Assembly (NCBI RefSeq): GCF_003337555.1 | Contig: NZ_QPJK01000002.1 | Span: 186,001-250,000 of the forward strand | Length of the DNA: 64,000 nt | Source of the DNA: Pseudorhodoferax soli | GTDB taxonomy: Bacteria; Pseudomonadota; Gammaproteobacteria; Burkholderiales; Burkholderiaceae_C | Direction: 5' to 3' | Shown here: positions 1,578 through 36,549 of the stretch, in pieces | Layout of the letters: each line of letters begins with the position of its first letter | Numbering within the stretch: position 1 is the stretch's first letter | Program-made: the position numbers and the translations under genes | The notes under the pieces: model-generated | What the model saw: the letters and a program-made list of their open reading frames with translations, nothing else | Told to the model about the DNA's origin: nothing | The model's database searches: none

Positions 1578-3319
1578 CACGACTGCCCCTGTGCGCCTGC
1601 GCTGCCTTGCTCAGCGTGCTCGCCACCAATGCCATTGCAGAGCCGCAGGCCAGCGCCATCGTCGCGGCTTCGGGCAGCCAGACGCAAAGCCAACAGATCT
1701 TCGTTGGCTGGTACGACAACGCCGCCGGCGACGTGCAGGCTCTGGACAGCCCCGCGGCAAGCCATCCACGGTGGAGCGCTGCCGCGCGGCTGCAAGGCCT
1801 GGGCAGTGCATCGCGCACCCTGGCAAGCGCCGGTGTGGAGCGCGGCAGCGCCGCCTGGACCGCATTGGCCGACCAATACGGGGCCGCGGCGCTGGGAGCA
1901 GTGCGCAACGCCAACCTGTGGTTCGTCGCGGGGCGCGCTGGCGTGCCAGGAGGGCGCGCCATGGTCTATGCCGGCGCCACCGACGGCATGCTGCACGGGT
2001 TTGCCGCCGACGACGGCAGCGAGCTGCTGGCGTATCTGCCACGCCGACTGCAGCGCCGGTCCGGAATGGCAGCTGTCGATGGACCGGTGTTTGGTGGCGA
2101 CGCCCCAGTTGGCGCCCAGGCCGCGCCGCGCAGCTTGCTCGTGGCCGGGCTCGGCCTGGGCGGGCCGGGCTATGTGGTGCTGGATGTGGGCATGCCCGAC
2201 CGCTTCGCATCGGCCCGCGCCACCGATCTCGTCGTCGCCGACACCACCGACGGGACGGACGCCGACATCGGCCAGCTGCACGCCCCTGCCGTGCTCGACG
2301 ACGCGAACGCCAACCGTGCCCGCCACATCGTGCAGATGGCCAACGGCCGCTGGGCGCTGGTGATCGGCAATGGCTACTTCAGCACCGCGGGCCGGCCTGT
2401 CTTGCTGGTGCAGTACCTCGATCAGGCCCGCGAATTGCTGCGCCTGTCTCCCTGCATGGCGGATGCGCCGTGCGCCTACGCGGGCGGCAACGGCCTGGCC
2501 ATGCCGAGGTTGCTCGACACCGATGGCGACGGCCGCATGGACCTGGCCTACGCGGGCGATCTGCAGGGGCAGCTGTGGCGCTTCGACATGGGCGGCACCG
2601 AAAGTGACTGGCGCGCCAGCCGTGTCTTCACGGCCTGCGACGCGCAAGGCCGCCGCCAGCCCATCACCACGGCACCCTATGCGCAACACCATCCCCAGGG
2701 CGGATGGATGCTGGTGTTCGGGACCGGTCGCCATCTGCTCGACCAGGACAGCGCCGTCGCGGACCCGCAATCGCTGTATGGCGTGCACGACCGCGGCCCA
2801 TCCGACCCGCTGCAACCGGAAAACGCCGCCTGCCGGCGCCCAGACACGCTGAGCGCGCTGGCCTACGGCGACGCGAGTGCCTCGCAAGGCACGGACTACC
2901 ACGACATTCGCAAGCTGGTGCAGCCCGAAACCGCCGCACGATCGCGCGGTTGGTGGATCGACTTGCCGCACCCTGGGCAGCGCGTGCTGCACAACCCGCA
3001 GCTGTTCGAGGGCTACAAGCTGCTGGTACGCAGCGTGGTGCCCGTCGGCGGCGCACAGCCGCGCAGCGCCGGGCGCGCCTGGGTATCGGTGCTCAACCTG
3101 CTGACTGGCATGCCGCCGGCTCAGCCGCCCTTCGTGCTGGCCGACGCCGGCCTGCAGGCGCAGCCATTGGCCATGGCCAGCGTGCCGACCGGACCGGCGC
3201 TGCTGTCGCGCCGCCCCGGCAGTCGTGAAGCTCTGCTGCGCTCCGCCAACGGCCAGCAGCTGGCGCTGCGCACCGGCACGACGGTGGGTGCACGGGCCGG
3301 CTGGCGCGAACAGCCCTGA
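1574..3319 (+). CDS. pilY1: PilY1/PilC-type pilus tip adhesin, short form
   Basis: This 581-residue secreted protein has a signal peptide (residues 1-22, ending TNAIA) and a beta-propeller-like domain typical of the PilY1 C-terminal half. One signature is YAGATDGMLHGF near residue 130. A calcium-binding loop DTDGDGRMD at residues 315-323 matches the PilY1 site that controls retraction in Pseudomonas. Full PilY1 proteins are about 1000-1200 residues. Here the N-terminal adhesive (von Willebrand-like) region is missing, and the protein starts almost directly at the propeller. The start overlaps the pilX stop. No pilE or fimT follows; the next gene is ribD. Confidence 0.82.
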   Translation: MTRLPLCACAALLSVLATNAIAEPQASAIVAASGSQTQSQQIFVGWYDNAAGDVQALDSPAASHPRWSAAARLQGLGSASRTLASAGVERGSAAWTALADQYGAAALGAVRNANLWFVAGRAGVPGGRAMVYAGATDGMLHGFAADDGSELLAYLPRRLQRRSGMAAVDGPVFGGDAPVGAQAAPRSLLVAGLGLGGPGYVVLDVGMPDRFASARATDLVVADTTDGTDADIGQLHAPAVLDDANANRARHIVQMANGRWALVIGNGYFSTAGRPVLLVQYLDQARELLRLSPCMADAPCAYAGGNGLAMPRLLDTDGDGRMDLAYAGDLQGQLWRFDMGGTESDWRASRVFTACDAQGRRQPITTAPYAQHHPQGGWMLVFGTGRHLLDQDSAVADPQSLYGVHDRGPSDPLQPENAACRRPDTLSALAYGDASASQGTDYHDIRKLVQPETAARSRGWWIDLPHPGQRVLHNPQLFEGYKLLVRSVVPVGGAQPRSAGRAWVSVLNLLTGMPPAQPPFVLADAGLQAQPLAMASVPTGPALLSRRPGSREALLRSANGQQLALRTGTTVGARAGWREQP

Positions 3320-19290: not shown

Positions 19291-21096
19291 ATGAGCTACA
19301 CCAAGAAGAACATCAACAAGCGCAAGTTCGACGTCGTCATCGTCGGCGCCGGCGGCTCCGGCATGCGCGCTGCACTCGAACTCTCGCGCGCCGGCCTGTC
19401 CGTCGCTTCGCTGTCCAAGGTTTTCCCGACGCGCTCGCACACGGTGGCGGCGCAGGGCGGCGTGTCCGCCTCGCTGGGCAACATGTCCGAGGACAACTGG
19501 CACTACCACTTCTACGACACCATCAAGGGCTCCGATTGGTTGGGCGACCAGGACGCCATCGAGTTCATGTGCCGTGAAGCGCCCAAGGTGGTGATCGAGC
19601 TCGAGCACTTCGGCATGCCATTCGACCGCAACCCGGACGGCACGATCTACCAGCGCCCGTTCGGCGGCCACACCGCCAACTACGGCGAGAAGCCCGTGCA
19701 GCGCGCCTGCGCCGCGGCCGACCGCACCGGCCACGCCATGCTGCACACCCTGTACCAGCAAAACGTCAAGGCCAAGACCAACTTCTTCGTCGAGTGGATG
19801 GCGCTGGACCTGATCCGCGACGCCGATGGCGACGTGGTCGGTGTCACCGCGCTCGAACTGGAAACCGGCGAGCTGTACGCGCTGCAGGCCAAGGCCGTGC
19901 TGCTGGCCACCGGCGGCGCCGGCCGCATCTTCGCGGCATCGACCAACGCCTTCATCAACACCGGCGACGGCCTGGGCATGGCGGCGCGCGCCGGCATCCC
20001 GTTGCAGGACATGGAGTTCTGGCAATTCCACCCGACCGGCGTGGCCGGCGCGGGCGTGCTGCTGACCGAAGGCTGCCGCGGCGAAGGCGCCATCCTGCTC
20101 AACAGCAATGGCGAACGTTTCATGGAGCGCTACGCGCCCACGCTGAAGGACCTGGCACCGCGCGACTTCGTCTCGCGTTCCATGGACCAGGAGATCAAGG
20201 AAGGTCGCGGCTGCGGTCCCAACAAGGACTACATTCTCATGAAGCTGGACCACCTGGGCGCCGACACCATCCGCAAGCGCCTGCCCTCGGTGGAAGAGAT
20301 CGGCCACAACTTCGCCAACGTCGACATCACCAAAGAGCCAATCCCGGTGGTGCCGACCATCCACTACCAGATGGGTGGCATCCCGACCAACATCAACGGC
20401 CAGGTCGTCACGCACGACGGCCAGCAGAACAACATCGTCAACGGCCTGTACGCGGTCGGCGAGTGCTCCTGCGTGTCGGTGCATGGCGCCAACCGCCTGG
20501 GCACGAACTCGCTGCTGGACCTGCTGGTGTTCGGCAAGTCCGCCGGCAAGCACATCGTCGAATTCATCCGCGGCAGCGGCGAGCACAAGCCGCTGCCGGC
20601 CGATGCAGGCGACAAGACGCTGGCCCGCCTGAACCAGTTGCAGGAATCCACGGATGGCGCCTACGCGCAGGACGTGGCCAACGACATCCGCGCCACCATG
20701 CAGCAACACGCCGGCGTGTTCCGCACGCAGGCCAGCATGGACGAGGGCGTGGTCAAGGTCGACGCCATCCGCGACCGCGTCTCCGGCGTCACGCTGAAGG
20801 ACAAGTCGATGGTCTGGAACACGGCCCGCATGGAAGCGCTGGAAGTCGACAACCTGATCGAAGTCGCGCAGGCCACCATGACCTCGGCCGCCGCGCGCAA
20901 GGAATGCCGCGGCGCCCACACCGTCTACGACTACGAGCACCCGGCCGACCATGCCGAGTTCCCGCTGGGCCGCAACGACAAGGAATGGATGAAGCACACG
21001 CTGTGGCACAGCGAAGGCAACAACCTGACCTACAAGCCGGTCAACCTGAAGCCCCTGACGGTCGATTCGATCCCGCCCAAGGTCCGTACGTTCTAA
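19291..21096 (+). CDS. sdhA: Succinate dehydrogenase flavoprotein subunit
   Basis: SdhA (601 residues) oxidises succinate to fumarate using covalently bound FAD. Visible are the dinucleotide fold VIVGAGGSGMRAAL (about 15-28), the flavinylated His in TRSHTVAAQGG, FAD- and substrate-site segments FHPTG and GCRGEGAILLN, the catalytic loop MDQEIKEGRGCG, and GECSCVSVHGANRLGTNSL. Length is normal. The ATG at 19291 follows sdhD with two bases between. SdhE, encoded in the same operon, would promote flavinylation. Confidence 0.97.
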   Translation: MSYTKKNINKRKFDVVIVGAGGSGMRAALELSRAGLSVASLSKVFPTRSHTVAAQGGVSASLGNMSEDNWHYHFYDTIKGSDWLGDQDAIEFMCREAPKVVIELEHFGMPFDRNPDGTIYQRPFGGHTANYGEKPVQRACAAADRTGHAMLHTLYQQNVKAKTNFFVEWMALDLIRDADGDVVGVTALELETGELYALQAKAVLLATGGAGRIFAASTNAFINTGDGLGMAARAGIPLQDMEFWQFHPTGVAGAGVLLTEGCRGEGAILLNSNGERFMERYAPTLKDLAPRDFVSRSMDQEIKEGRGCGPNKDYILMKLDHLGADTIRKRLPSVEEIGHNFANVDITKEPIPVVPTIHYQMGGIPTNINGQVVTHDGQQNNIVNGLYAVGECSCVSVHGANRLGTNSLLDLLVFGKSAGKHIVEFIRGSGEHKPLPADAGDKTLARLNQLQESTDGAYAQDVANDIRATMQQHAGVFRTQASMDEGVVKVDAIRDRVSGVTLKDKSMVWNTARMEALEVDNLIEVAQATMTSAAARKECRGAHTVYDYEHPADHAEFPLGRNDKEWMKHTLWHSEGNNLTYKPVNLKPLTVDSIPPKVRTF

Positions 21097-21110
21097 CAAG
21101 GTCCCACACG

Positions 21111-21812
21111 ATGAAGCGCACATTCCAGATCTACCGCTACGACCCGGACAAGGACGCCAAGCCTTACATGCAGACCGTCGAGATCGAGCTCGACGGCAGC
21201 GAACGCATGCTGCTGGATGCCCTGGTCAAGCTCAAGCAGCAAGACCCGACGATCTCGTTCCGCCGCTCCTGCCGCGAAGGCGTCTGCGGCTCCGATGCGA
21301 TGAACATCAACGGCAAGAACGGCCTGGCCTGCCTGACCAACATGAACACGCTGAAGGACCCCGTCGTCCTGAAGCCGCTGCCAGGCCTGCCCGTGATCCG
21401 CGACCTGATCGTGGACATGACGCAGTTCTTCAAGCAGTACCACTCGATCAAGCCCTACCTCATCACCGAAAGCCTGGCCCCCGACAAGGAACGCCTGCAA
21501 TCGCCCGAGGAGCGCGACGAGCTGAACGGCCTGTACGAGTGCATCTTGTGTGCGAGCTGCTCCACGAGCTGCCCGAGCTTCTGGTGGAACCCGGACAAGT
21601 TCGTGGGCCCGGCCGGCCTGCTGCAGGCCTACCGCTTCATCGCCGACAGCCGCGACGAAGCCACGGCCGAACGCCTGGACAACCTGGAAGACCCGTACCG
21701 CCTGTTCCGCTGCCACACCATCATGAACTGCGTGGACGTGTGCCCCAAGCATCTGAACCCGACCAAGGCCATCGGGAAGATCAAGGAGATGATGGTGCTT
21801 CGCACCGTCTGA
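21111..21812 (+). CDS. sdhB: Succinate dehydrogenase iron-sulfur subunit
   Basis: The 233-residue subunit carries the three clusters that wire FAD to ubiquinone. The 2Fe-2S site is CREGVCGSD with a later Cys in GLAC. The 4Fe-4S and 3Fe-4S ligands lie in CILCASCSTSCP and CVDVCPKHLNP with the RCHTIMNC segment. It starts 14 bases after sdhA, and sdhE begins five bases past its stop. Confidence 0.97.
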   Translation: MKRTFQIYRYDPDKDAKPYMQTVEIELDGSERMLLDALVKLKQQDPTISFRRSCREGVCGSDAMNINGKNGLACLTNMNTLKDPVVLKPLPGLPVIRDLIVDMTQFFKQYHSIKPYLITESLAPDKERLQSPEERDELNGLYECILCASCSTSCPSFWWNPDKFVGPAGLLQAYRFIADSRDEATAERLDNLEDPYRLFRCHTIMNCVDVCPKHLNPTKAIGKIKEMMVLRTV

Positions 21813-21817
21813 ATGCC

Positions 21818-22102
21818 GTGGCCCAAGCGCAGGAAGTCCTCGACGAACGCGCGCTGGCGATGCTGCGCTGGCGCTGCCGGCGCGGCCTGCTGGAGAACGA
21901 TCTGTTCCTGGAACGATTCTTCGAACGCCACGGTCCAAATGTCACTGCGGCGCAGGCCGATGCCCTGTCGCAATTGATGGAATTGGGAGACCACGACCTG
22001 CTCGACCTGCAACTGGCACGCAAGACGCTGGAACAGGTCAGTCCTGCGCTGGACAACGCCGAGACGCGCGCTGTCCTGAATCTGTTACGAGAAAACCGCT
22101 GA
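21818..22102 (+). CDS. sdhE: FAD assembly factor SdhE
   Basis: The 94-residue protein contains the SdhE signature [15 protein letters not shown] (the RGxxE motif), needed for covalent attachment of FAD to SdhA. The GTG at 21818 is five bases after sdhB and gives the full N-terminal helix; an ATG at 21860 would give an 80-residue form that still contains the motif. Location between sdhB and gltA matches the usual arrangement in Betaproteobacteria. Confidence 0.9.
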
Positions 22103-22112
22103 AAGGGTGAAC

Positions 22113-23423
22113 ATGAAACTAGCCGAAAACAAAGCCACGCTGTCGTTCAGCAATGGCAGTCCGAGCGTCGAGTTGCCTGTGTACCAGGGCAACGTCGGTC
22201 CGGATGTCGTGGACATCCGCAAGCTCTACGCGCAGACCGGAATGTTCACCTACGACCCGGGCTTCCTCTCCACGGCATCGTGCCAATCCGCCATCACCTA
22301 CATCGATGGCGACAAGGGCGAGCTGCTGTACCGCGGCTACCCCATCGAGCAGTTGGCCACGAACTGCGACTTCCTGGAAACCTGCCACCTGCTGCTGTAC
22401 GGCGAACTGCCGAACACGGAGGAAAAGGGCAAGTTCACCAAGCTCGTGACCAACCACACGATGGTCAACGAGCAGATGCAGTTCTTCCTGCGTGGCTTCC
22501 GCCGCGATGCGCATCCGATGGCCATCATGACGGGCCTGGTCGGCGCGTTGTCGGCCTTCTACCACGACAGCACGGACATCAACAATCCGGAGCACCGCAA
22601 CATCTCCGCGATCCGCCTGATCGCCAAGATGCCCACGCTGGTCTCGATGGCCTACAAGTACACCATCGGCCAGCCGTACATGTACCCGCGCAACGACCTC
22701 AGCTATGCAGGCAATTTCCTGCACATGATGTTCGCGACGCCCTGCGAGGAATACAAGGTCAGCCCGGTGCTCGAACGCGCGCTGGACCGCATCTTCATCC
22801 TGCACGCCGACCACGAGCAGAACGCCTCCACCTCCACGGTGCGCCTGTGCGGCTCCTCGGGCACCAACCCGTTCGCCGCCATCGCCGCCGGTGTCGCCTG
22901 CCTGTGGGGCCCTGCCCACGGCGGTGCCAACGAGGCTGCGCTGAACATGCTGTATGACATCCAGCGCGAAGGCGGCGTTGAGAAGATCGGCGAGTTCATC
23001 AAGAAGGTCAAGGACAAGAACTCCAGCGTCAAGCTGATGGGCTTCGGTCACCGCGTCTACAAGAACTACGACCCGCGCGCCAAGCTCATGCAGGAAACCT
23101 GCAACGAGGTGCTGACCGAGCTGGGCCTGGAGAAGGATCCGCTGTTCAAGCTGGCCAAGGAGCTGGAGAAGATCGCCCTGGAAGACGAGTACTTCGTCTC
23201 GCGCAAGCTGTACCCGAACGTGGACTTCTACTCGGGCATCGTGCAGCGCGCCATCGGCATCCCGGTGCCGCTGTTCACGGCCATCTTCGCGCTGGCCCGC
23301 ACGGTCGGCTGGATTGCCCAGTTGAACGAAATGATCGGCGACCCCGAGTACAAGATCGGCCGTCCGCGGCAGCTGTTCACGGGCTCGACCAAGCGCGACG
23401 TGCAGCCGCTCGCAAAGCGCTGA
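22113..23423 (+). CDS. gltA: Citrate synthase
   Basis: The 436-residue type II (Gram-negative, hexameric) citrate synthase condenses oxaloacetate with acetyl-CoA. Motifs seen are the catalytic His regions [11 protein letters not shown] and [14 protein letters not shown], the Asp region DFYSGIV, and [17 protein letters not shown] at 22107 is in frame, but the ATG at 22113 with GAAAGGG just upstream is the better start. It ends the sdh operon and is followed by a clear terminator. Confidence 0.96.
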
Positions 23424-23447
23424 TCGACTGTTGCCTTCGGGCACAAG

Positions 23448-23481
23448 AGCCCCGCCGGCCCTCTGGCCCGCGGGGCTTTTT
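23448..23481 (+). terminator. Intrinsic terminator after gltA
   Basis: AGCCCCGC (23448-23455) pairs with GCGGGGCT (23470-23477) and is followed by a T-run. It lies 25 bases after the gltA stop and would end the sdh-gltA transcript. Confidence 0.88.
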
Positions 23482-23503
23482 CTCGTCCACGGCCGGCAGG
23501 AGG

Positions 23504-23576
23504 GGCATCGCGATCGGCGATGCCTCCGGCCTTAAAACTGGTGGAAAATGGCCGCCCCGTCGCCGCAGGCGATGCC
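23504..23576. promoter_or_regulatory. Inverted and direct repeats upstream of the lysR-type gene
   Basis: GGCATCGC (23504-23511) and GCGATGCC (23517-23524) form a perfect 8-bp inverted repeat with a 5-base loop. A further copy GGCGATGCC occurs at 23568-23576, six bases before the regulator ATG at 23582. Repeats of this type upstream of a LysR gene could be autoregulatory sites, but this is inferred from position only. Confidence 0.4.
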
Positions 23577-23581
23577 CCACC

Positions 23582-24550
23582 ATGATGAAACCGTCCGAAC
23601 GCAACTTTGCCCGCCGCATCGACCTCACGTCGTTGCAGCTGTTCGTGGCCGTCTACGAACTGGGCAGCATCGGCAAGGCTGCCGAGCGGGAGTTCATCGC
23701 TGCCTCGGCCGTCAGCAAGCGGCTGTCCGACCTGGAAACGCTGTTGCAGACCACGCTGCTGTACCGCCACGCGCGCGGTGTGGACCTGACGCCGGCCGGC
23801 GAAAGCCTGCTGCACCATGCCCGCTCCGTGCTGTTCAGCCTGGACCGCATGCAGGGCGAGCTCAGCGAGTACGCCGACGGCGTGCGCGGCCATGTGCGCG
23901 TGCACGCCAGCATCTCGGCCATCGTGCAGTTCCTGCCCGAAGACCTGGGCGATTTCGTGCGGCGCCATGGCGGCATCAAGATCGACCTGGAAGAGCATTT
24001 GTCCAGCGAGGTCGTGCGCGCAGTGCAGGAGGGCGCGGCCGACCTGGGCATCTGCCATGCCGCGGCCGCCGAGACCAGTGACACGTTGCAGACCCGCCCC
24101 TACCGGCGCGACCGGCTGGTGCTGATCGTGCCGCGCGGCCACCAGTTGGCAGGACGCGGGGCCGTGCCGTTCGATGCCACGCTGGCTTTCGACCAGGTGG
24201 GCCTGCACAGCAACAGCTCCATCCACCTGGCCATGCACAGCGCGGCCGCGAGCCTGGGCCGCACCATCAAGCTGCGCATCCAGGTCACGGGCCTGGATGC
24301 CATGTGCCGCATGATCCACAACGGCCTGGGCATCGGCGTGATGCCGCAGCGCGCGTTCGAACTCATGCACGGCGTGGGCGACCTCGAGCATGTGCCGCTC
24401 AGCGACGCCTGGGCCGAACGCCAGATCCGCATGGTGGCGCGCGACTTCTCCACGCTGCCGGTCACGGCGCGGCTGCTGGTCGAGCACCTGGCCCCGCCTC
24501 CCGAACCACCTGCCGAGCCTGTGTCTGCCGACCAGGCCTTGGCCGTTTGA
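23582..24550 (+). CDS. LysR-family transcriptional regulator
   Basis: The 322-residue regulator has an N-terminal helix-turn-helix (about 14-75; [40 protein letters not shown]) and a periplasmic-binding-protein-like co-inducer domain (about 100-300). It is on the same strand as leuC, only 28 bases upstream, so it may be co-transcribed with leuC. Whether it regulates leucine synthesis is unknown. LysR regulators often act on a divergent neighbour, and here there is none. Confidence 0.9.
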
Positions 24551-24578
24551 ACGAACCAGTCCCCCACGAAAGAAGCCC

Positions 24579-26024
24579 ATGAGCCTCACCACCAGCCCCG
24601 CGGGTGCGCGCACCCTGTACGACAAGATCTTCGACGAGCACACCGTCCACACCGAGGAAGACGGCACGGCCGTGCTGTACATCGACCGCCACCTGGTGCA
24701 CGAGGTCACGAGCCCGCAGGCCTTCGAAGGCATCCGCCAGGCCGGCCGCAAGGTGTGGCGCGTGAGCTCCATCGTGGCCACGGCCGACCACAACACCCCC
24801 ACCACGGGCTGGGAACAGGGCTACGACGGCATTGCCGACCCGATCAGTAAGGAACAGATCACCACGCTGAACAGCAACATCAAGGAGTTCGGCGCGGCCG
24901 CGTTCTTCCCCTTCATGCACAAGCGCCAGGGCATCGTGCACGTGATCGGCCCGGAGAACGGTGCCACGCTGCCGGGCATGACGGTGGTCTGCGGTGACAG
25001 CCACACCAGCACGCACGGTGCCTTCGGTGCGCTCGCGCATGGCATCGGCACCAGCGAGGTCGAGCACGTGATGGCCACGCAGACACTGCTGGCCAAGAAG
25101 GCCAAGAACATGCTCGTCAAGGTCGAGGGCCAACTGGCCAAGGGCGTCACGGCCAAGGACATCGTGCTGGCCATCATCGGCAAGATCGGCACCGCCGGCG
25201 GCACGGGCTACACCATCGAATTTGCCGGCTCCGCCATCCGCAGCCTCAGCATGGAAGGCCGCATGACGGTCTGCAACATGGCCATCGAAGGCGGCGCGCG
25301 TGCCGGCCTGGTGGCGGTGGATGACAAGACCATCGATTACGTCAAGGGCCGCCCGCTCGCACCCACCGGCGTGGCTTGGGATCAGGCCGTTGCCTACTGG
25401 AAGACGCTGCACTCCGACCCGGGCGCCCACTTCGACACCGTGGTCGAGCTGGACGCCACGCAGATCGTGCCGCAGGTCACCTGGGGCACCTCGCCCGAGA
25501 TGGTGCTGGGCATCGACGGCCGGGTGCCCGATCCCGACAAGGAGAAGGACGCCAACAAGCGCGGTGCCATCGAGCGCGCGCTGACCTACATGAACCTGGA
25601 GCCGGGCAAGGCGCTCGACGACATCTTCGTCGACAAGGTGTTCATCGGCAGCTGCACCAACAGCCGCATCGAGGACATGCGCGAAGCCGCCGCCGTGGTC
25701 AAGAAGCTCGGACAGAAGGTGGCCAAGAACGTCAAGCTCGCCATGGTGGTGCCGGGCTCGGGTCTCGTGAAGGAACAGGCCGAGCGCGAAGGCCTGCACG
25801 AGATCTTCAAGGCCGCCGGCTTCGAATGGCGCGAGCCGGGCTGCTCGATGTGCTTGGCCATGAACGCCGACCGGCTGGAGCCGGGCGAGCGCTGCGCCTC
25901 CACCAGCAACCGCAACTTCGAAGGCCGCCAGGGTGCCGGCGGACGCACGCACCTCGTCAGCCCGGCCATGGCCGCGGCCGCTGCCGTGCATGGCCACTTC
26001 GTCGACGTGCGCCAGTTCGCCTGA
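24579..26024 (+). CDS. leuC: 3-isopropylmalate dehydratase large subunit
   Basis: LeuC (481 residues) is the aconitase-like large subunit that isomerises 2- and 3-isopropylmalate in leucine synthesis, with LeuD. Cluster-ligand motifs are [15 protein letters not shown] and [29 protein letters not shown] is another family signature. The ATG at 24579 follows an AAAGAAG sequence and gives the standard N-terminus ([11 protein letters not shown]). The entericidin-type gene begins 10 bases after its stop, then leuD. Confidence 0.96.
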
Positions 26025-26034
26025 GGCAGCCCCC

Positions 26035-26157
26035 ATGAAAGCCACCACCGCACTGCTGCTGGCTGCTGCCTTCGCGCTGGCCGCATGCAACACCGTCAAG
26101 GGTGTCGGCAAGGACGTGCAACGTGCCGGCGAAGCCATCGAGCGCTCGGCCAAGTAA
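26035..26157 (+). CDS. Entericidin-like small lipoprotein
   Basis: This 40-residue ORF encodes a lipoprotein precursor with a short basic start (MKATT), a hydrophobic stretch and the lipobox LAAC (lipidated Cys18). The 22-residue tail [19 protein letters not shown] is typical of entericidin A/B. In E. coli entericidins form a stress-related toxin/antidote lipoprotein pair, but many homologues are single and of unknown role. Here one copy sits between leuC and leuD, 10 bases after leuC and 16 before leuD, so it is almost certainly co-transcribed with the leucine genes. Confidence 0.87.
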
Positions 26158-26173
26158 ACACAGGAACACCGCC

Positions 26174-26827
26174 ATGCAGAAATTCACCATCCACAAGGGC
26201 CTCGTCGCGCCCATGGACCGCGAGAACGTCGACACCGACGCCATCATCCCCAAGCAGTTCCTCAAATCGATCAAGAAGACCGGCTTCGGCATCAACCTGT
26301 TCGACGAGTGGCGTTACCTGGACAAGGGCGAGCCCGGCGTGCCCGAGTCCGCGCGCAAGCCCAACCCCGACTTCGTGCTGAACCAGCCACGCTACGCCGG
26401 CGCCTCGGTGCTGCTGGCGCGCAAGAACTTCGGCTGCGGCTCCTCGCGCGAGCACGCGCCCTGGGCGCTGGACCAGTACGGCTTTCGCGCCATCCTGGCG
26501 CCGAGCTTTGCCGACATCTTCTTCAACAACAGCTTCAAGAACGGCCTCTTGCCCATCGTGCTGCCCGAAGCCACCGTGGCCCAGCTGTTCGACGAGTGCT
26601 TTGCGTTCCCGGGCTACCAGCTGACGGTCGATCTGGAGCGCCAGGTCGTCGTGCGCCCGCAGGGCGAGGAGATCGCGTTCGACGTCCAGCCCTTCCGCAA
26701 GTACTGCCTGCTCAACGGCTTTGACGACATCGGCCTGACCTTGCGCCACGCCGACAAGATCCGCGCCTACGAGGCCGAGCGCCTGGCCGCCAAGCCCTGG
26801 CTGGCCAACACCATGCTGTCCGCCTGA
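26174..26827 (+). CDS. leuD: 3-isopropylmalate dehydratase small subunit
   Basis: LeuD (217 residues) forms the swivelling domain that completes the isopropylmalate isomerase active site. Family motifs are [13 protein letters not shown], the loop [15 protein letters not shown] and [16 protein letters not shown]. It starts 16 bases after the entericidin-like gene, with leuB 28 bases downstream. Confidence 0.96.
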
Positions 26828-26855
26828 TCCCTTTTCCAACCTATCTTCATCGCTT

Positions 26856-27926
<1,071 letters not shown>

Positions 27927-27937
27927 AATCTCGCCCC

Positions 27938-28036
27938 ATGTCCGCCGCCGCCTGCTCCGCAATCCTGTCCATGCCGTTCGGCATGGCTGCGGCGGCCGAC
28001 ATCTCCACCAAAACCACGACCACCATTACGGGCTGA
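27938..28036 (+). CDS. Thr/Ile-rich leader peptide upstream of asd
   Basis: A 32-codon ORF starts at ATG 27938 and ends at TGA 28034-28036. Its C-terminal part reads ISTKTTTTITG, with six Thr and two Ile codons in 11 positions, mostly ACC/ACG. This strongly resembles the threonine-operon leader peptides of enterobacteria (thrL), where ribosome stalling at Thr/Ile codons controls attenuation. It lies 97 bases upstream of asd, a gene of the aspartate-to-Thr/Ile pathway, and is followed by competing hairpins. Internal ATGs at 27971 and 27983 could also serve as the start. Translation is inferred. Confidence 0.65.
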   Translation: MSAAACSAILSMPFGMAAAADISTKTTTTITG

Positions 28037-28114
28037 CTCAGCCTGGTTCGTCGTGCGCCCTTCCTGGCCGTCGACGCGCCAGGCGAGCAGTCCCTCTAGG
28101 CGCTGTTTGTTTTT
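28030..28114 (+). promoter_or_regulatory. Predicted transcription attenuator upstream of asd
   Basis: Several mutually exclusive pairings are possible. GGCTG (28031-28035, over the leader stop) pairs with CAGCC (28039-28043). GCCTGG (28041-28046) can pair with CCAGGC (28079-28084). CCTGGC (28063-28068) can pair with GCCAGG (28078-28083). GCGCC (28076-28080) can pair with GGCGC (28099-28103), directly before the T-rich stretch 28104-28114. The last pair would be the terminator; pairings using 28078-28084 would block it. The terminator stem is only five base pairs with a long loop, so its strength is uncertain. Confidence 0.5.
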
Positions 28115-28132
28115 ACTTGAAAGGGCAATGTG

Positions 28133-29296
28133 ATGAAGGTAGGTAATCTGGTCGGCCTCGTCGGCTGGCGCGGCATGGTCGGCTCGGTCCTGATCGACCG
28201 CATGCAGGCCGAGGGCGATTTCGAGTTGATCGAACCGGTGTTCTTCTCGACCTCCAACGCGGGCGGCAAGGCCCCTGCGCAAGCCAAGAACGAGACCACG
28301 CTGCAGGACGCCTACGACATCGCCGCGCTCAAGCGCTGCGACATCATCATCACGGCCCAGGGCGGCGACTACACCAGCGAAGTTTTCCCCAAGCTGCGCG
28401 CCGCCGGCTGGAACGGCCACTGGATCGACGCAGCCTCCACGCTGCGCATGAAGGACGACGCGGTCATCGTGCTCGACCCGGTCAACCTGCCGGTGATGCA
28501 GCGTGCGTTGGCCAAGGGCGGCAGGAACTGGATCGGCGGCAACTGCACCGTCAGCTGCATGCTGATGGGCGTGGGCGCGCTGTACAAGGCCGGCCTGGTC
28601 GAATGGATGAGCACCATGACCTACCAGGCCGCATCCGGCGGTGGCGCCCAGCACATGCGCGAGCTGCTGACGCAGTTCGGCAGCATCCACGGCGAGGTGC
28701 GCGACCTGCTCAACGACCCCAAGTCGGCGATCCTGGAGATCGACCGCAAGGTGCTGGCCAGGCAAAAGGCCCTTTCCGCCGACGAGACCGCCAACTTCGG
28801 CGTGCCGCTGGGTGGCAGCCTGATCCCGTGGATCGACAAGGACCTGGGCCTGGGCAAGTCGCAGGACGATGCCGAATGGGGCATGTCCAAGGAAGAGTGG
28901 AAGGGCGGCGCCGAGACCAACAAGATCCTGGGCCAGGGTCCGTCCTTCGGCACCGGCATCACGCCGGTCGACGGCTTCTGCGTGCGCATCGGCGCCATGC
29001 GCTGCCACAGCCAGGCGCTGACCTTCAAGCTAAAGAAGAACGTGCCGCTGGCCGACATCGAAGCCATGCTGGCCGCCGACAACGAGTGGGTGCGCGTGGT
29101 GCCGAACACGCGCGAGGACACGCTCAAGGGCCTGACGCCCGTGGCCACCACCGGCACCCTGACGATCCCGGTCGGCCGCATCCGCAAGCTGGCCATGGGC
29201 CCGGAATACGTGGGCGCGTTCACGGTCGGCGACCAACTGCTGTGGGGCGCAGCCGAGCCGCTGCGCCGCACGCTGCGCGTGCTGCTGCAGGCCTGA
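28133..29296 (+). CDS. asd: Aspartate-semialdehyde dehydrogenase
   Basis: Asd (387 residues) reduces aspartyl phosphate to aspartate semialdehyde, the branch compound for Lys, Met, Thr, Ile and diaminopimelate. It begins [14 protein letters not shown] (NADP fold) and has the catalytic Cys138 in [30 protein letters not shown] is another family segment. It is the Gram-negative (E. coli-like) form. The ATG at 28133 is seven bases after GAAAGGG (28119-28125). An in-frame GTG lies at 28130, and a start-stop ATGTGA (28128-28133) sits between the ribosome-binding site and the true start. Confidence 0.95.
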
Positions 29297-29316
29297 GCCG
29301 CACCCTTCCCCCTGAC

Positions 29317-29339
29317 ACGGCCCGCCTCTGGCGGGCCGT
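29317..29339 (+). terminator. Hairpin after asd (likely terminator)
   Basis: ACGGCCCGCC (29317-29326) pairs perfectly with GGCGGGCCGT (29330-29339) around a 3-base loop, 20 bases after the asd stop. The following T-run is very short, so termination may be partial or factor-assisted. Confidence 0.65.
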
Positions 29340-29476
29340 TGGCGTCTGGCAACATCGGGGGGCAGCGAGAATGGCGCGCTCCAATGCGGCGCCAAGTTCG
29401 AACCCGCTTCAGCTTGTCAGCCTAAAGCATTGCTGCTACCGTTCTTTTTAGTAACCAAGTCGGCCCGTCCATTTGC

Positions 29477-32017
29477 ATGATCAAACGTTCCAATGCTGCT
29501 GAACAGGCCGATGACAAACCACTGGTGAAGCCGGCCTTGCAGGGCTGGACGCGCAGCATGGTGGCCGCAACCGCCACCGCGGCATTGCTGGCGCCGCTGC
29601 AGCAGGCCCAGGCATTGACCTTGGGCCGGGCCTCGGTGCAATCGGCCCTCGGCGAGCCGTTGCGCGCCGAGATCGAGCTGCCGGACATCACGGAAGAAGA
29701 GTCCCGCACGCTGCAGACCGCGATCGCGACGCCCCAGGCGTTCCGCGCGGCCGGGCTCGAGTACAACGCCGCCCTGGGCACGGTGCGCATCGAACGGGCG
29801 CGCCGCGCCGATGGTCGCGCCGTGCTGCGGCTCAGCAGCGACCAGCCCGTCCGCGAGCCCTTCATCGACCTGATCCTGCAGGCCAACTGGGCCTCGGGCC
29901 GGGCGGTGCGCGATTACACCTTGCTGCTGGACCCACCGTCGCAGCGCCAACCCGCTGCGCAGACGGCGCCGCAGTTGCCGCCCAGCGCCGCCGCGGCACC
30001 GCCTGCCGTGGCCGCGCCGCCTGCTCGCCCACCCGCCGCGCCCCCGGCGGCTTCGGCGCCAGCGCCGGCCCCAGCGCCAGCCGCCACTCCAGCGCCGCCC
30101 TCGCCTCCTGCAGCGCCGCCGGCTCCGGCAGCACGCGCAGCCGCACCCCCACCGGCGCCCGGCGCCACGCCAGACACCGCCACCGTGCGCCGTGGCGACA
30201 CCGCCAGCCGCATCGCCTCCGCCAACCGGCCGCCCAACGTCTCGCTCGACCAGATGCTGGTCGCCATGTTGCGGGGCAATCCGAACGCCTTCATCGACGG
30301 CAACGTCAACCGCCTGCGTGCCGGTGCCGTGCTGGACTTGCCCAACGCCAGCCAGGCCGCCGCCGTTCCCGCGGACGAAGCCACGCGCACGATCGCGGCC
30401 CAGTCGCGCGACTTCAACGCCTACCGCAGCCAGATGGCGGGCCAGGTGCCCACGGTCCCGGGCGGCGCGCAGCGTTCTGCCAGCGGCCGGGTGCAAGGCA
30501 AGGTCGACGACAGCCGGCCCGCGGCGACGGCACCGGACCGGCTGACCCTGTCCAAGGGTGGCGTGCAAAGCCGCGCGCAGGAAGAAAAGATTGCGCGCGA
30601 AAAGGCCAGCAAGGAAGCCGCCGAACGCGTCGCGGAACTCTCGCGCAACATCGACGCGCTCAACAAGCTGGGCGCGGGCGGCCCCGCATCATCCGCATCC
30701 GCATCCGCACCTGCGCCCGCCCCAGCGCCGGCGCCGGAACCTGCGGCCTGGGCTGCTGCGCAGGTCCCTGCCCCGCAAGCTTCGGCCCCAGCCCCGGCGT
30801 CCGCCCCGGAACCCGCCGCATCGGTGCCTGCAGCCGAGCCGCCTGCCTCCGCCAAGGCCCTGCCAGCCCCCGGCCCAATGCCCGCGGCGCAGGAACAGGG
30901 CGGCCTGCTCGACAGCCTGCGCCGCAACCCGCTGCTGCTGGCCGCGGCGGCCGTCCTGCTCGCCCTGCTGGCCGCGTTGGGCATCTACCGCGCACGCCAG
31001 CGCCGCCAGGCCGCCGAAGAGGAGAGCCGCCTGCAGGAGCCGGTGGAGTCGTTCTTCGCCAGCAGCGGTGGCCAGCATGTGGACACCACCGCCGAGAGCG
31101 AGGCGGCGGCTACCGCCGTCTACTCGCCCAGCCAGTCCGACACCAGCAGCGAGGTTGATCCGGTGGCCGAAGCAGAGGTCTACCTCGCTTACGGCCGCAA
31201 TCTGCAGGCCGAGGAAATCCTCCAGGAAGCCCTGCGCACCACGCCCGAACGCGTGGCCATCCACGCCAAGCTGGCCGAGATCCATGCCAAGCGCCGCGAC
31301 GCGACCGCGCTGCAGGCGACCGCGGCGAAGGTGCACGCCCTGACCGGCGGCACTGGCCCCGAATGGGAAGCTGTCGCGGCACTGGGCCGCGAACTGCAAC
31401 CAGAACACCCGCTCTGGCGCGATGCCGCCGTGGCGGGCCTGGGCGCGGCAGCCGCAGGCGCCGCTGTCGCTGTGGCTGGCGCCGCGCCGCCGCCGCCCGC
31501 GGCCGATGACAGCGATGCTTCGCTGTGGCCGGACTCCACGGCGACCCCGCCCGCGCCGTCGGCACCCGCACTGCAGCCCATGCCGGACATTAGCCTGGAC
31601 CTCGGCGACGACGACAGCCCGGCCCCGCGGGCGCCGCCTGCCAAGCCCGCGGCCGATGCCGAGCCACCGGCGCCACCGATGGCCGAAGCCATGGACCTCG
31701 ACTTCGACGTGCAGAGCACCTACAAGGCGCCGTTGGCGGCGCCCACGCCCGCACCGGCCACGGACTCCGACCTGCTGCCGTTCGACCTGGGCTCGCTGTC
31801 GCTGGACCTCGGCGAACCCGCCGACAAGGGCTCGGCCGCCGAGCCCATCGCCGAACCGGAGGCCGACGACCCGCTCGCCACCAAGCTGGCCCTGGCCGAG
31901 GAATTCCAGGCCATTGGTGATGACGACGGCGCGCGCGCGCTGGCAGAAGAGGTGCTGGCCGAAGCCACCGGGCCGCTCAAGGCCCAGGCGCAGCGCTTCC
32001 TGGCCGAACTCGGCTGA
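29477..32017 (+). CDS. fimV: FimV/HubP-type polar hub protein
   Basis: The 846-residue protein has a signal or anchor segment (about 28-48) and the FimV N-terminal domain (LGRASVQSALGEPLRAEIEL). A Pro/Ala-rich stretch precedes a LysM peptidoglycan-binding domain at about 235-290 (TVRRGDTASRIA). A transmembrane helix lies at about 485-505, followed by an acidic cytoplasmic region with TPR-like repeats. The last 45 residues are the conserved FimV C-terminal motif (KLALAEEFQAIGDDDGARALAEEVL). FimV/HubP proteins organise the cell pole and type IV pilus or twitching machinery. Linkage to truA and trp genes is the usual one. Confidence 0.9.
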   Translation: MIKRSNAAEQADDKPLVKPALQGWTRSMVAATATAALLAPLQQAQALTLGRASVQSALGEPLRAEIELPDITEEESRTLQTAIATPQAFRAAGLEYNAALGTVRIERARRADGRAVLRLSSDQPVREPFIDLILQANWASGRAVRDYTLLLDPPSQRQPAAQTAPQLPPSAAAAPPAVAAPPARPPAAPPAASAPAPAPAPAATPAPPSPPAAPPAPAARAAAPPPAPGATPDTATVRRGDTASRIASANRPPNVSLDQMLVAMLRGNPNAFIDGNVNRLRAGAVLDLPNASQAAAVPADEATRTIAAQSRDFNAYRSQMAGQVPTVPGGAQRSASGRVQGKVDDSRPAATAPDRLTLSKGGVQSRAQEEKIAREKASKEAAERVAELSRNIDALNKLGAGGPASSASASAPAPAPAPAPEPAAWAAAQVPAPQASAPAPASAPEPAASVPAAEPPASAKALPAPGPMPAAQEQGGLLDSLRRNPLLLAAAAVLLALLAALGIYRARQRRQAAEEESRLQEPVESFFASSGGQHVDTTAESEAAATAVYSPSQSDTSSEVDPVAEAEVYLAYGRNLQAEEILQEALRTTPERVAIHAKLAEIHAKRRDATALQATAAKVHALTGGTGPEWEAVAALGRELQPEHPLWRDAAVAGLGAAAAGAAVAVAGAAPPPPAADDSDASLWPDSTATPPAPSAPALQPMPDISLDLGDDDSPAPRAPPAKPAADAEPPAPPMAEAMDLDFDVQSTYKAPLAAPTPAPATDSDLLPFDLGSLSLDLGEPADKGSAAEPIAEPEADDPLATKLALAEEFQAIGDDDGARALAEEVLAEATGPLKAQAQRFLAELG

Positions 32018-32039
32018 GCGGCGCGCCGGGGAGGGATCG

Positions 32040-32825
32040 ATGGTGCGTCTGGCACTCGGGGTCAGCTATGCGGGCCAGGCCTACGACGGCTGGCAGAGCC
32101 AGCCTTCGGGCAACACCGTGCAGGACAAGCTCGAAGCGGCGCTGCGCAGCTTCGCGCAGCAGGACATCGGCACCCTCTGCGCCGGCCGCACCGATGCCGG
32201 TGTGCATGGCCTCATGCAGGTGGTGCACTTCGACACCACGGTCCGGCGCGAGACCCATGCCTGGGTGCGCGGCACCAACAGCTTCCTGCCTGGTGACATC
32301 GCCGTGCAATGGGCCCATCCCGTCACGGAGCAGTTCCACGCACGCGCCAGCGCCATCGGCCGGCGCTACGCCTACGTGCTGATGGAGTCGCCCGTGCGGC
32401 CCAGTGTGGAGCGCGGGCGCATCGGCTGGGTGCACCGCCCGCTCGACCACGCAGCCATGCAGGCGGCGGCCGTGCTGTTGCTGGGCGAGCACGATTTCAC
32501 ATCCTTCCGCGCCTCGCAGTGCCAGGCGCGCACGCCCGTCAAGACCATGCGCCGCATCGACATCACGCGGCGCGGCGCCTACTGGCGTTTCGAGTTCGAG
32601 GCCGATGCATTCCTGCACCACATGATCCGCAACCTCATGGGTTGCCTGCTGGTCGTCGGCAAGGGCGACCGGCCCGTGGAATGGATGGCCGAGGTGCTGG
32701 CCGCGCGCGACCGCCGCGTAGCCGCCCCCACCTTCTCACCCGACGGTCTGTACTTCCTGGGCCCGCGCTACGAAGACCATTGGGGCCTCCCGGAACGCAC
32801 GGTTGCCTATGATTGGCTCCCCTGA
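32040..32825 (+). CDS. truA: tRNA pseudouridine(38-40) synthase
   Basis: TruA (261 residues) isomerises uridines 38-40 in tRNA anticodon arms. The catalytic Asp52 lies in CAGRTDAGVHG, and RYAYVLMESP, DFTSFRASQC and FLHHMIRNLMGCLL are family motifs. The ATG at 32040 follows GGGGAGG (32027-32033). The fimV-truA-trpF order is typical of Beta- and Gammaproteobacteria. Confidence 0.95.
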   Translation: MVRLALGVSYAGQAYDGWQSQPSGNTVQDKLEAALRSFAQQDIGTLCAGRTDAGVHGLMQVVHFDTTVRRETHAWVRGTNSFLPGDIAVQWAHPVTEQFHARASAIGRRYAYVLMESPVRPSVERGRIGWVHRPLDHAAMQAAAVLLLGEHDFTSFRASQCQARTPVKTMRRIDITRRGAYWRFEFEADAFLHHMIRNLMGCLLVVGKGDRPVEWMAEVLAARDRRVAAPTFSPDGLYFLGPRYEDHWGLPERTVAYDWLP

Positions 32826-32879
32826 GCGCTTCGCCTGAAAGCGCCCCACCGCCGCCCGTTTGGGCAGAGGTTTCCCCCT

Positions 32880-33558
32880 ATGACCAGAACCCGCATCAAG
32901 ATCTGCGGCATCACGCGCGAACAAGACCTGGACGCCGCCGTGGCCGCTGGCGCCGACGCCGTCGGCTTCGTGCTCTACGCCAATAGCCCGCGCTGTGTCG
33001 CACCGCGCCGCGCGGCCGAGCTTGCACGCCGGCTGCCGCCCTTCGTCACGCCCGTGCTGTTGTTCGTCAACACCCCGCCCCAGGAAGTGGCCGCCGCCTG
33101 CGACCAGGTGCCTGGCGCCACGGTGCAGTTCCACGGCGACGAGACGCCGGCCCAATGCCTGGCTGCCACGGCACGCCCCGCCCGCCCCTTCCTGCGCGCA
33201 GCCCGCATTCCGCTGGATGAAAACGCAGGGCCGTTCGACTTGGTAAGATTCGCGGCCGAATTCTCCCAAGCCCAGGCCATCCTGCTCGACGCCCATGTCG
33301 AGGGATACGGCGGCGGCGGCAAGGCATTCAATTGGTCACTCCTGCCAACAAGCGTCGACTCTCACCTCGTCTTGAGTGGTGGACTCACGCCTGCAAACGT
33401 GACCGATGGCATCTTGCAGGTGCGGCCACGCGCGCTGTCGCTGGCCGTTGATGTGAGTTCCGGCGTCGAGGCCTCCAAGGGCATCAAGGACGCCGACAAG
33501 ATCAACCGCTTCGTCGCGGCCGTCCGCGCCGCCGACGCGCACTTTGCAAAGATTCATC

Positions 33559-33584
<26 letters not shown>
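32880..33584 (+). CDS. trpF: Phosphoribosylanthranilate isomerase
   Basis: The 234-residue TIM-barrel enzyme catalyses the Amadori rearrangement of phosphoribosylanthranilate in tryptophan synthesis. It begins [16 protein letters not shown] with the catalytic Cys and has [25 protein letters not shown] and [10 protein letters not shown], the last including the phosphate-binding loop. Length is slightly above average owing to a C-terminal extension. trpB starts inside its last 26 bases. There is no Trp-rich leader peptide upstream. Confidence 0.95.
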
Positions 33585-34823
<1,239 letters not shown>

Positions 34824-34827
<4 letters not shown>

Positions 34828-35633
34828 GCCGCATCGCCACCACCTTCGCCGGGCTCAAGGCGCAAGGCCGCAAGGCGCTGATCCCCTATGTCACGGCCGG
34901 CTTCCCCTATGCCGACGTCACGCCCGAACTCATGCACGCCATGGTCGCGGCCGGCGCCGACGTGATCGAACTCGGCGTGCCGTTCAGCGACCCGATGGCC
35001 GACGGGCCGGTGATCCAGGAGGCAGGCGAGAAGGCCCTGGCCCTGGGCATCGGCATGGCGCAGGTGCTCGCGATGGTGAAGGCTTTCCGCGTGCAGGATA
35101 CGCAGACGCCCGTGGTGCTGATGGGCTACGCCAACCCGGTCGAGCGTTACGAGCAGCGCCACGGCGCCGACAGCTTTCCGCGCGATGCGGCGGCCGCCGG
35201 TGTCGACGGCGTGCTCGTCGTCGACTACCCGCCCGAGGAGTGCGTGGACTTTGCGGCCCGCCTGCGCGCCAAGGGCATCGACCTGATCTTCCTGCTGGCT
35301 CCCACCTCGACCGACGAGCGCATGCGCCAGGTGGCCGAGGTGGCGAGCGGCTACGTCTACTACGTCTCGCTCAAGGGCGTGACGGGTGCCGGCACGCTGG
35401 ACACCGCGGCTGTGGAGGCCATGCTGCCGCGCATCCGCCGCCATGTGCAGCTGCCCGTCGGCGTCGGCTTCGGCATCCGCGATGCCAGCACGGCCCAGAC
35501 CGTGGGCCGCGTGGCCGATGCGGTGGTCATCGGCAGCAAGATCATCCAGCTGCTCGACGGGCAGCCGCGCGACCAGGTCGCCAGCACGGCGGCTGGGTTC
35601 CTGCGCGGCATCCGTTCGGCACTCGACGCATAA
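34824..35633 (+). CDS. trpA: Tryptophan synthase alpha subunit
   Basis: TrpA (269 residues) cleaves indole-glycerol phosphate and passes indole through a tunnel to TrpB. Motifs are the catalytic Glu/Asp region [18 protein letters not shown], the acid in VVDYPPEE, and the phosphate-binding VGVGFGIRD. It is translationally coupled to trpB; accD follows after 37 bases, the usual trpFBA-accD order. Confidence 0.97.
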
Positions 35634-35670
35634 TCCTTCCCCCGTTCGCTCACCGGAGTAGCCAAATCTC

Positions 35671-36549
35671 ATGTCCTGGCTCGAAAAACTGCTTCCCGCC
35701 AAGATCCAGCCCAGCGACCCGGCCGAGCGCCGCCAGGTCCCCGAGGGCCTGTGGATCAAGTGCCCCAGCTGCGAGACCGTGCTCTACAAGACGGATCTCG
35801 AGAAGAACCTGAACGTCTGCCCGACCTGCGGCCACCACCACCGCATCACGGCGCGTGCACGGCTGGACACCTTCCTGGATCCCGAAGGCCGCTACGAGAT
35901 CGGCCACGAGGTCCTGCCCATGGACCCGCTCAAGTTCAAGGACAGCCGCAAGTACCCTGAGCGGCTCAAGGAAGCGCTGGACAACACCGAGGAAACCGAT
36001 GCGCTGATCGTCATGGGCGGCGCACTCCATGGGCTGAACGTGGTGGTCGCCTGCTTCGAGTTCGAGTTCATGGGCGGCAGCATGGGCAGCGTGGTGGGCG
36101 AACGCTTCGTGCGCGGCGTGCACGCGGCCATCGACCAGAAGGTGCCCTTCATTTGCTTCACCGCCACCGGCGGTGCGCGCATGCAGGAGGGCCTGCTCTC
36201 GCTGATGCAGATGGCCAAGACCAATGCCTCGCTGACGCGCCTGGCCAAGAAGGGCCTGCCCTACATCAGCGTGCTGACCGACCCGACCATGGGCGGCGTG
36301 AGCGCCGGCTTCGCCTTCGTCGGCGACCTGGTCATCGCCGAACCCAAGGCGCTGATCGGCTTCGCCGGCCCGCGCGTGATCGAGTCCACCGTGCGCGTGA
36401 CGCTGCCCGAGGGCTTCCAGCGCGCCGAATTCCTGCAGCAAAAGGGCGCGGTCGACCTGATCTGCAACCGCAAGGACCTGCGCCGCACCATCGCCAGCAC
36501 GCTGGCCATGCTGCAGCGCCAGCCGGCCGACGCCGTCAGCGCCGGCTGA
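35671..36549 (+). CDS. accD: Acetyl-CoA carboxylase carboxyltransferase subunit beta
   Basis: AccD (292 residues) transfers the carboxyl group from carboxybiotin to acetyl-CoA, with AccA. The N-terminal zinc ribbon has Cys31, Cys34, Cys50 and Cys53 (CPSC, CPTCG). The crotonase-like core shows [26 protein letters not shown] and [12 protein letters not shown]. It ends directly next to the oppositely transcribed yggT gene, with no base between the two stop codons. Confidence 0.96.

Follow-up and report, generated by a model that had tools for sequence, protein, structure and literature searches.

We identified, between leuB and asd in the window (the whole 64-kb stretch of DNA analysed here), a leader element that is probably a ribosome-mediated attenuator of asd responding to the supply of threonine, isoleucine and lysine. 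Leader-peptide ribosome-mediated attenuation is a known class; new here are the gene, the clade, the control set and a leader that is either leaderless or borne on LeuB. Thr, Ile, Lys and Met are all end products made from the product of Asd, and because Asd makes their common precursor, such a leader would read three of the four end products. In a wider reading, to which we give about an even chance, the element is an attenuator of joint Thr, Ile and Lys supply throughout the window's family, with a sensor that is interchangeable between a leaderless mini-mRNA and the LeuB C terminus, has switched repeatedly between these settings and acts at least partly at the level of translation.

We infer stalling, switching, the direction of control and the output step as follows. 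A ribosome would translate the Thr/Ile/Lys tail of the leader just 5′ of a conserved RNA switch. When any of the Thr-, Ile- and Lys-tRNAs runs short, it would stall on the tail, at about codons −11 to −6, and leave the downstream strand free, whereupon helix P2 would form; with P2 formed, neither helix P3 nor the sequestering helix would form and asd would be expressed. Where P2 is extended, the U-tract hairpin would also be excluded. If all three tRNAs are plentiful, the ribosome would reach the stop codon and cover the 5′ arm of P2; this would let P3 and the U-tract hairpin form, and the strand UUCGUC..GCCCUU would be free to pair with the ribosome-binding site and start of asd. This would turn the gene off because its translation could not start; where a lineage has a U-tract like the window's, premature termination would probably contribute as well. 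The tail would be modular, forming part of a probably leaderless 32-codon mRNA with its own promoter here and the C terminus of LeuB in many relatives. The tail and its codon specificity, helices P2 and P3, the −10 box and the fusion all emerge from comparison of sequences (Table 1).

Table 1. Features of the asd leader region, numbered from the first base of the window
Feature	Position	Strand	Basis or detail
leuB, without the C-terminal Thr/Ile/Lys extension of fused relatives	26856-27926	+	PF00180, 1.3e-138; tail lengths
Putative −10 box TAGAAT, leader's own promoter	27924-27929	+	Sequence; first three bases are the leuB stop
Leader ORF of 32 codons with a TGA stop, probably leaderless (transcription would start at or beside its ATG)	27938-28036	+	
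Control-codon tail ISTKTTTTITG (Thr, Ile, Lys)	28001-28033	+	Composition, codon-position entropy and ANN-codon test, 128 distinct elements
Helix P1	28030-28044	+	GGGCU 28030-28034 (last codons and stop) with AGCCU 28040-28044
Outer P2 extension	28030-28093	+	GGGCUG 28030-28035 with CAGUCC 28088-28093; CUC 28037-28039 with GAG 28085-28087
Helix P2 (ON, or antiterminator)	28041-28084	+	28041-28053 with 28072-28084; fold and covariation
Sequestering strand	28047-28062	+	UUCGUC 28047-28052, GCCCUU 28057-28062; duplex energies, folding
Helix P3 (OFF)	28063-28083	+	CCUGGC 28063-28068 with GCCAGG 28078-28083; 3′ strand common to P2
Terminator-like hairpin and U-tract	28085-28114	+	28085-28091 with 28102-28108, U-tract to 28114; predicted fold
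asd Shine-Dalgarno and start codons, putative target of the sequestering strand	28120-28137	+	
asd, aspartate-semialdehyde dehydrogenase, putative regulated gene	28130-29296	+	PF02774, 7e-40; PF01118, 5.2e-27

The leader ORF of the window (translation MSAAACSAILSMPFGMAAAADISTKTTTTITG) starts 11 nt 3′ of the leuB stop codon and ends 93 nt 5′ of the asd GTG, and it has no match to any Pfam family. As the initial annotation had reported, its last 11 codons include six for Thr and two for Ile. The assigned position between leuB and asd is likewise borne out: the Pfam matches of the neighbours agree with leuC, an entericidin-like small gene (PF08085, at 26035-26157, between leuC and leuD), leuD, leuB, asd and fimV. 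The same annotation proposed competing hairpins and a T-rich tract 3′ of the leader; predicted folds of 28033-28115 (−37 kcal/mol, z −3.5) and 27930-28128 (z −4.4) agree with this, and the tract TGTTTGTTTTT lies at 28104-28114. The hairpin 5′ of the tract is imperfect, with many A-U and G-U pairs, and a consensus scan of 27800-28250 found no terminator and no promoter. The asd Shine-Dalgarno (SD) sequence AAAGGG is at 28120-28125 and the start codon is either the GTG at 28130 or the ATG at 28133. One statement of the annotation, that the Thr run is very unlikely by chance, was too strong: across six frames of the window, at least six Thr codons occur in 26 of the 111,458 stop-free spans of 11 codons, at about ten separate places, and only the leader's own two spans combine at least six Thr with two Ile. 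As the Thr run alone is not very improbable, the case for the leader rests on comparison.

Conservation of the Thr run in relatives had been proposed as a check on the leader, and the element proved to be widespread. A covariance model, made from 55 of the 63 first-aligned sequences with near-copies and L015 left out, matches the asd strand in the window and in 70 of the best 80 asd loci, drawn from at least 591 in a genome-contig search; in the other ten (L006, L009, L025, L038, L042, L043, L044, L048, L054 and L072) the model finds no element. All five same-genus genomes that were fetched carry it. In the 8.16-Mb genome of origin the element itself is the one strong match (E 8.5e-17; the next is 0.67). 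Searches of more than 40 genomes used stricter filters and so lost weak matches; in the window's family such a search matched 333 of 399 sampled genomes at E≤0.1, in 125 of 141 genera, about 29 of the 333 being weaker than 1e-4 by hand count. In every one of the 64 family loci that were fetched at E≤1.1e-4, the element lies before asd. Among 300 genomes of the order, strong matches were confined to the nine that belong to the window's family, the genome of origin included, and among 13 genomes outside the family with best E-values of 6e-4 to 9e-3 the element precedes asd in one (G676). Weak matches at L147, L148, L155 and L157-L168 were taken as noise because no asd is present there. The counts that follow refer to 128 distinct elements obtained from 139 in the family, which are not a random sample, having been chosen from the best and from weaker matches; L034, cut at a contig end, is in none of them.

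Some individual loci depart from the common arrangement. At L144 (1501-1576) P2 is kept and LeuB ends in KALK, without Thr codons, as a stage of decay; at L042 (around 2950-3000) LeuB ends in VTNNKG, the RNA is lost and asd follows directly, which looks like a relic at a stage of decay. At L057 (2337-2980) a gene resembling a GNAT acetyltransferase by eye lies between the element and asd, and the element now precedes this other gene. Finally, behind a normal leader in ten loci (L102, L108, L111, L112, L114, L118, L119, L149, L150 and L154) asd is only 65-70% identical to that of the window, most others being about 78-87% identical; in these ten asd may have been replaced and the leader kept.

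The composition of the tail points to a control set of three amino acids. Across the 128 elements, Thr makes up 47% of codons −10 to −3, Ile 21% and Lys 15%, and hardly any specify Asn, Asp, Glu, Gln or Phe; the corresponding Thr, Ile and Lys values are 6%, 2% and 0.7% in codons −28 to −11 of the separate leaders and 5%, 5% and 3% in LeuB. Lys is present in 121 of the 128 tails; Ile is present in 123, two or more Thr codons are likewise present in 123, and 111 tails combine at least two Thr, one Ile and one Lys; Met, the fourth end product, appears in six. The Thr and Ile codons of the initial annotation therefore stand, with the amendment that Lys, as regular as Ile, is a third member of the control set. 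Part of the role of the Lys codons could be to keep the tail free of structure. Variation is greatest at third codon positions (0.94 bits of entropy in separate leaders against 0.14 and 0.56 at the other positions, and 1.49 bits in fused tails against 0.41 and 1.30), so amino acids are kept more than nucleotides, a codon constraint which argues that the tail is translated. It is kept in either setting, as a mini-ORF in 71 of the 128 elements and on LeuB in 57.

Almost every codon of the tail begins with A (first-position entropy 0.14 for separate leaders and 0.41 for fused ones), as might be expected if the tail were a sensor of ANN codons, rather than of Thr, Ile and Lys, with the modification t6A as its signal. 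t6A is made from threonine and is present in tRNAs for ANN codons. A passage of PMC4132733 has the related m6t6A affecting thr attenuation. We nonetheless consider this reading very unlikely: 850 of the 862 ANN codons in the tail specify Thr, Ile or Lys, compared with about 63% in asd, and hardly any specify Asn, Met, Ser or Arg, at 12 of 862 against about 37% in asd.

The RNA that follows the tail can adopt competing structures. In the window P2 has 12 pairs and one mismatch (28048/28077), and across the alignment 92% of its cells are paired, whereas structures slid by 1-3 columns pair in only 22-56%. The initial annotation had named compensatory changes as a further check, and P2 has them: double-change cells number 15 and 23, against shuffled means of 5.7 and 8.5 and with none of 500 shuffles as high, in shuffles that ignore the relatedness of the sequences. 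Other measures are less pronounced: 11 and 85 of 500 shuffles have as many pairs with double changes, pair types are no more numerous than in shuffles (151 and 388 of 500 have as many) and the RNAalifold covariation term is small (−0.57). P2 and P3 overlap on their 3′ strand in 116 of the 128 elements by an automatic parser. At one position of this shared strand, an A is accompanied by U in the P2 arm in 19 of 21 cases and in the P3 arm in 20 of 21, and a G by U in 23 of 83 and in 10 of 81 readable cases, respectively; this three-way covariation comes from the 104 of 128 elements that could be parsed, which are related sequences and so not independent. P1, which spans the stop codon, shows matching changes with the last codons, namely Ser GAGC/GCUC, Thr AGAC/GUCU in L051 and Arg GCGC/GCGC in L141. 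These exchanges are suggestive; a permutation test was not significant, with 174 of 500 as high.

How the switch would act on asd is best approached through the complementarity of the sequestering strand, in which UUCGUC matches the asd start GAUGAA (28132-28137) and GCCCUU the SD sequence AAGGGC (28121-28126). With the leader stop masked by a ribosome, this strand is predicted to pair with the SD and start of asd; if the mask is placed at the first Thr codon, the predicted fold has P2 in place of the sequestering helix. The stall was moved in the model from codon −5 to the first Thr codon, since starvation should halt a ribosome at the earliest codon whose tRNA is short. Folding took in 127 and 126 of the 128 elements. 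Over 126, predicted mean pairing of the SD with the leader is 0.72 with the ribosome at the stop and 0.38 with it at the first Thr codon, falling from 0.78 to 0.22 in separate elements and from 0.64 to 0.58 in fused ones. In 49 of the 126 the SD gains more than 0.1 in accessibility and in three it becomes less accessible, and it is predicted to be freed in 7 of 56 fused elements. With shuffled leader RNA the SD is unpaired at 0.40 and 0.39, compared with 0.23 and 0.35 in the same 60 native elements.

Duplex energies bear on the same point. In 124 of the 128 elements (L032, L065, L153 and L057 were out), the sequestering strand and the asd start form duplexes with a native mean of −14.58 kcal/mol, against −13.84 when partners are swapped among loci and −9.8 when shuffled. 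The best of 2000 swaps, −14.35 kcal/mol, falls short of the native mean, and for a given strand an average of 42% of the asd starts from other loci are better partners than its own; the compensatory signal in this duplex is thus weak. With the leuB start as a control the value is −6.3 kcal/mol, and the asd start is the stronger partner in 91 of 95. The asd starts of family loci that have no element match the strand as well (−11 to −16 kcal/mol in 7 of 10), so the strand seems to be fitted to a conserved target.

Transcription attenuation of the thrL type might instead be the whole of the mechanism, the extended P2 being the antiterminator, the U-tract hairpin the terminator and the complementarity to the asd ribosome-binding site incidental. 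A hairpin-like sequence with a U-tract is indeed present in the window and in all five same-genus relatives, and in folding with the ribosome masked at codon −8 the outer P2 extension occupies the 5′ arm of this hairpin in the window and in three same-genus loci that were displayed; the extension is not universal. By the rule of the stall-folding analysis a U-tract is found in 46 of the 71 distinct separate elements. It occurs in only 22 of 57 fused elements, however, and none is visible in the Burkholderiaceae-type leaders described below; moreover, the hairpin is weak and, as noted, the scan of its surroundings returned no terminator. We regard transcription attenuation alone as possible and on the whole unlikely. 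Defined as at least six T in 8 nt, the tract is present in 45 of 67 separate elements and 22 of 57 fused ones. Over all elements that have a U-tract, with the ribosome stalled at codon −8, the U-tract hairpin is predicted to be lower in 26 and higher in 9 of 46 separate elements, and lower in 4 and higher in 7 of 22 fused ones; with the stall at codon −5 it is predicted to be raised on average. From the SD-pairing predictions, the patchy U-tract and these stall-dependent hairpin results, we therefore favour translational control, with termination probably added in some lineages. Control may act on translation no less than on transcription, by SD sequestration and perhaps also by termination where there is a U-tract.

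The leader stop lies 59-138 nt 5′ of asd in all but one of 146 tabulated elements. This spacing would suit an ORF that senses no amino acids and whose sole role is reinitiation or translational coupling for asd, yet such a role leaves unexplained both the Thr/Ile/Lys specificity and the mutually exclusive, covarying helices, and its chances appear minimal.

Separate leaders probably are leaderless mRNAs with their own promoter and no Shine-Dalgarno sequence. A −10 box is found 6-9 nt 5′ of a leader ATG in 65 of the 69 separate leaders whose ATG is in range (TACAAT in 46, TAGAAT in 11, TATAAT in 5 and TAAAAT in 3), and the same test on control positions gave 5 of 8280. An SD-like motif 5′ of an ATG is present in 2 of 71 separate leaders. 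No conserved −35 box was seen among them.

The separate layout described in the initial annotation holds in the window and needs amending beyond it, as leuB itself bears the tail in many relatives. In 57 of the 128 elements there is no separate leader ORF and the tail is a C-terminal extension of LeuB, ending for example in DAVVAAITKKTITG in Variovorax and in DAVVAAITGKTITKS in other lineages. Beside separate leaders, LeuB ends 3-6 residues after its GDAVV motif (51 read); fused LeuB proteins continue for 9-20 residues after this core, with the one exception of L144, which has 4. The leader or LeuB tail, conserved as it is at the level of amino acids, might act as a peptide, either as an arrest peptide or as a functional extension of LeuB, and not through codon supply. 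To this we attach almost no probability: T, I and K come in varying order, fused tails differ in length over the range just given, some lineages show joint changes of the last codons and the 3′ arm of the RNA, and leuB lies within 400 nt upstream in only 41 of the 71 separate leaders.

The two settings appear to have been exchanged repeatedly. A LeuB tree of 129 rows was made by a quick search from stretches aligned to the window's LeuB, with most of the tail outside them, ten near-copies left out and six non-family rows with leaders labelled separate. As drawn, the first-branching family rows are fused, and parsimony requires 13 or more transitions between the fused, separate and absent states on this tree, in which 61 of 126 inner branches are poorly supported; its starred branches alone force at least three changes for fused and at least six for separate.

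The thrL leader contains Ile codons, and in ermC ribosome stalling in the leader frees a hidden ribosome-binding site. Vitreschak et al. (2004) reportedly predicted leader peptides by comparative genomics for Thr, branched-chain, His and other proteobacterial operons, mainly in gamma- and alpha-proteobacteria and, it is said, not for asd of Burkholderiales. The thrL attenuator of thrABC (RF00506) resembles our element in its runs of Thr codons in a short leader, its pathway, its alternative hairpins and the prominence of ACC codons; a passage of PMC4132733 gives the layout of a short leader with Thr-codon runs and alternative hairpins, and one of PMC1183508 gives eight ACC codons. The claim of the initial annotation that the element mirrors thrL holds for the logic and does not extend to a demonstrated terminator. 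Here asd rather than thrA is the putatively controlled gene, Lys codons are in the set, the hosts are Burkholderiales, the leader is probably leaderless or is fused to LeuB, and control may involve SD sequestration. Taken together, the comparisons support attenuation by the leader before asd, as far as sequences can speak to it.

Other systems share single traits with the element. As in the separate leaders, the mRNA of Sinorhizobium meliloti trpL is leaderless, its 5′ end being the ATG according to a passage of PMC7298713, but it serves Trp genes and has no fusion to an enzyme gene. In ermC-type translational attenuation (so named in a passage of PMC2965389) stalling frees a hidden ribosome-binding site, as we propose here; ermC answers an antibiotic, not amino-acid supply. 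The asd RNA motif of Lactobacillales (RF01732; a table row in PMC2864571) is likewise named for asd and belongs to another phylum. The 'Burkholderiales-1' motif of the same paper, compared by its table row only, reads '?', '?', 'n' there, which does not suggest a one-gene element. Rfam RF00506 gave no match at the element in its own genome; matches elsewhere fell under the cut-off, with similar ones in 13 of 14 control genomes. No family of Rfam 15, RF01732, T-box and riboswitches included, matched at the element in window positions 20000-36000 or in seven relatives, E-value searches returning three and one chance-level matches, respectively, none at the element. In open-access literature, taken as open-licence papers only, we found no Thr leader or attenuator before asd in Betaproteobacteria.

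If our reading is correct, it has several implications. First, ribosomes translating LeuB would double as a sensor for another pathway, and the fusion would be a case from nature in which the final codons of an enzyme gene act as an attenuator; unusual C-terminal tails of enzymes may more generally be regulatory codons rather than protein function. Second, a central enzyme of the aspartate family would be under amino-acid attenuation in Burkholderiales with a multi-product control set, and we know of no such case in that order. Finally, the repeated switches between fused and separate leaders would offer material for how leader peptides arise and are lost.

Comparable leaders also precede asd outside the window's family. 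Among 30 order-level asd loci a leader is present in two, one each from families f32 and f14, and absent in 28. We take f32 to be Burkholderiaceae in the narrow sense because records of Burkholderia multivorans and Caballeronia carry like leaders. A Thr/Ile-rich leader is present in 21 of the 30 f32 loci fetched, the best 30 of 60 genomes searched, and was not found in the remaining nine (L170, L199, L201, L203, L212, L218, L221, L222 and L224). Together with the two named records these make 23 Burkholderiaceae-type leaders, with tails of 36% Thr, 27% Ile and 19% Lys and with RNA that differs from that of the window's family and has no U-tract. Of these, 18 have an ATG in the scanned range, with a TGTA-type −10 box about 6-8 nt before it by eye. 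Three genomes of f14 (L175, L227 and L228) have a Thr/Ile/Lys leader before asd. A like control tail on unlike RNAs fits selection on codon supply. The f32 leaders (L171, L200-L226, L234 and L235) have a hairpin, CUUCCCCGC..GCGGGGAAG, shortly 5′ of the asd SD and without a U-tract, and one of the three f14 leaders, L175, has a UCGUC/GACGAG core like that of the window's family. One f32 genome, G717, also encodes a second, divergent asd with 52% identity.
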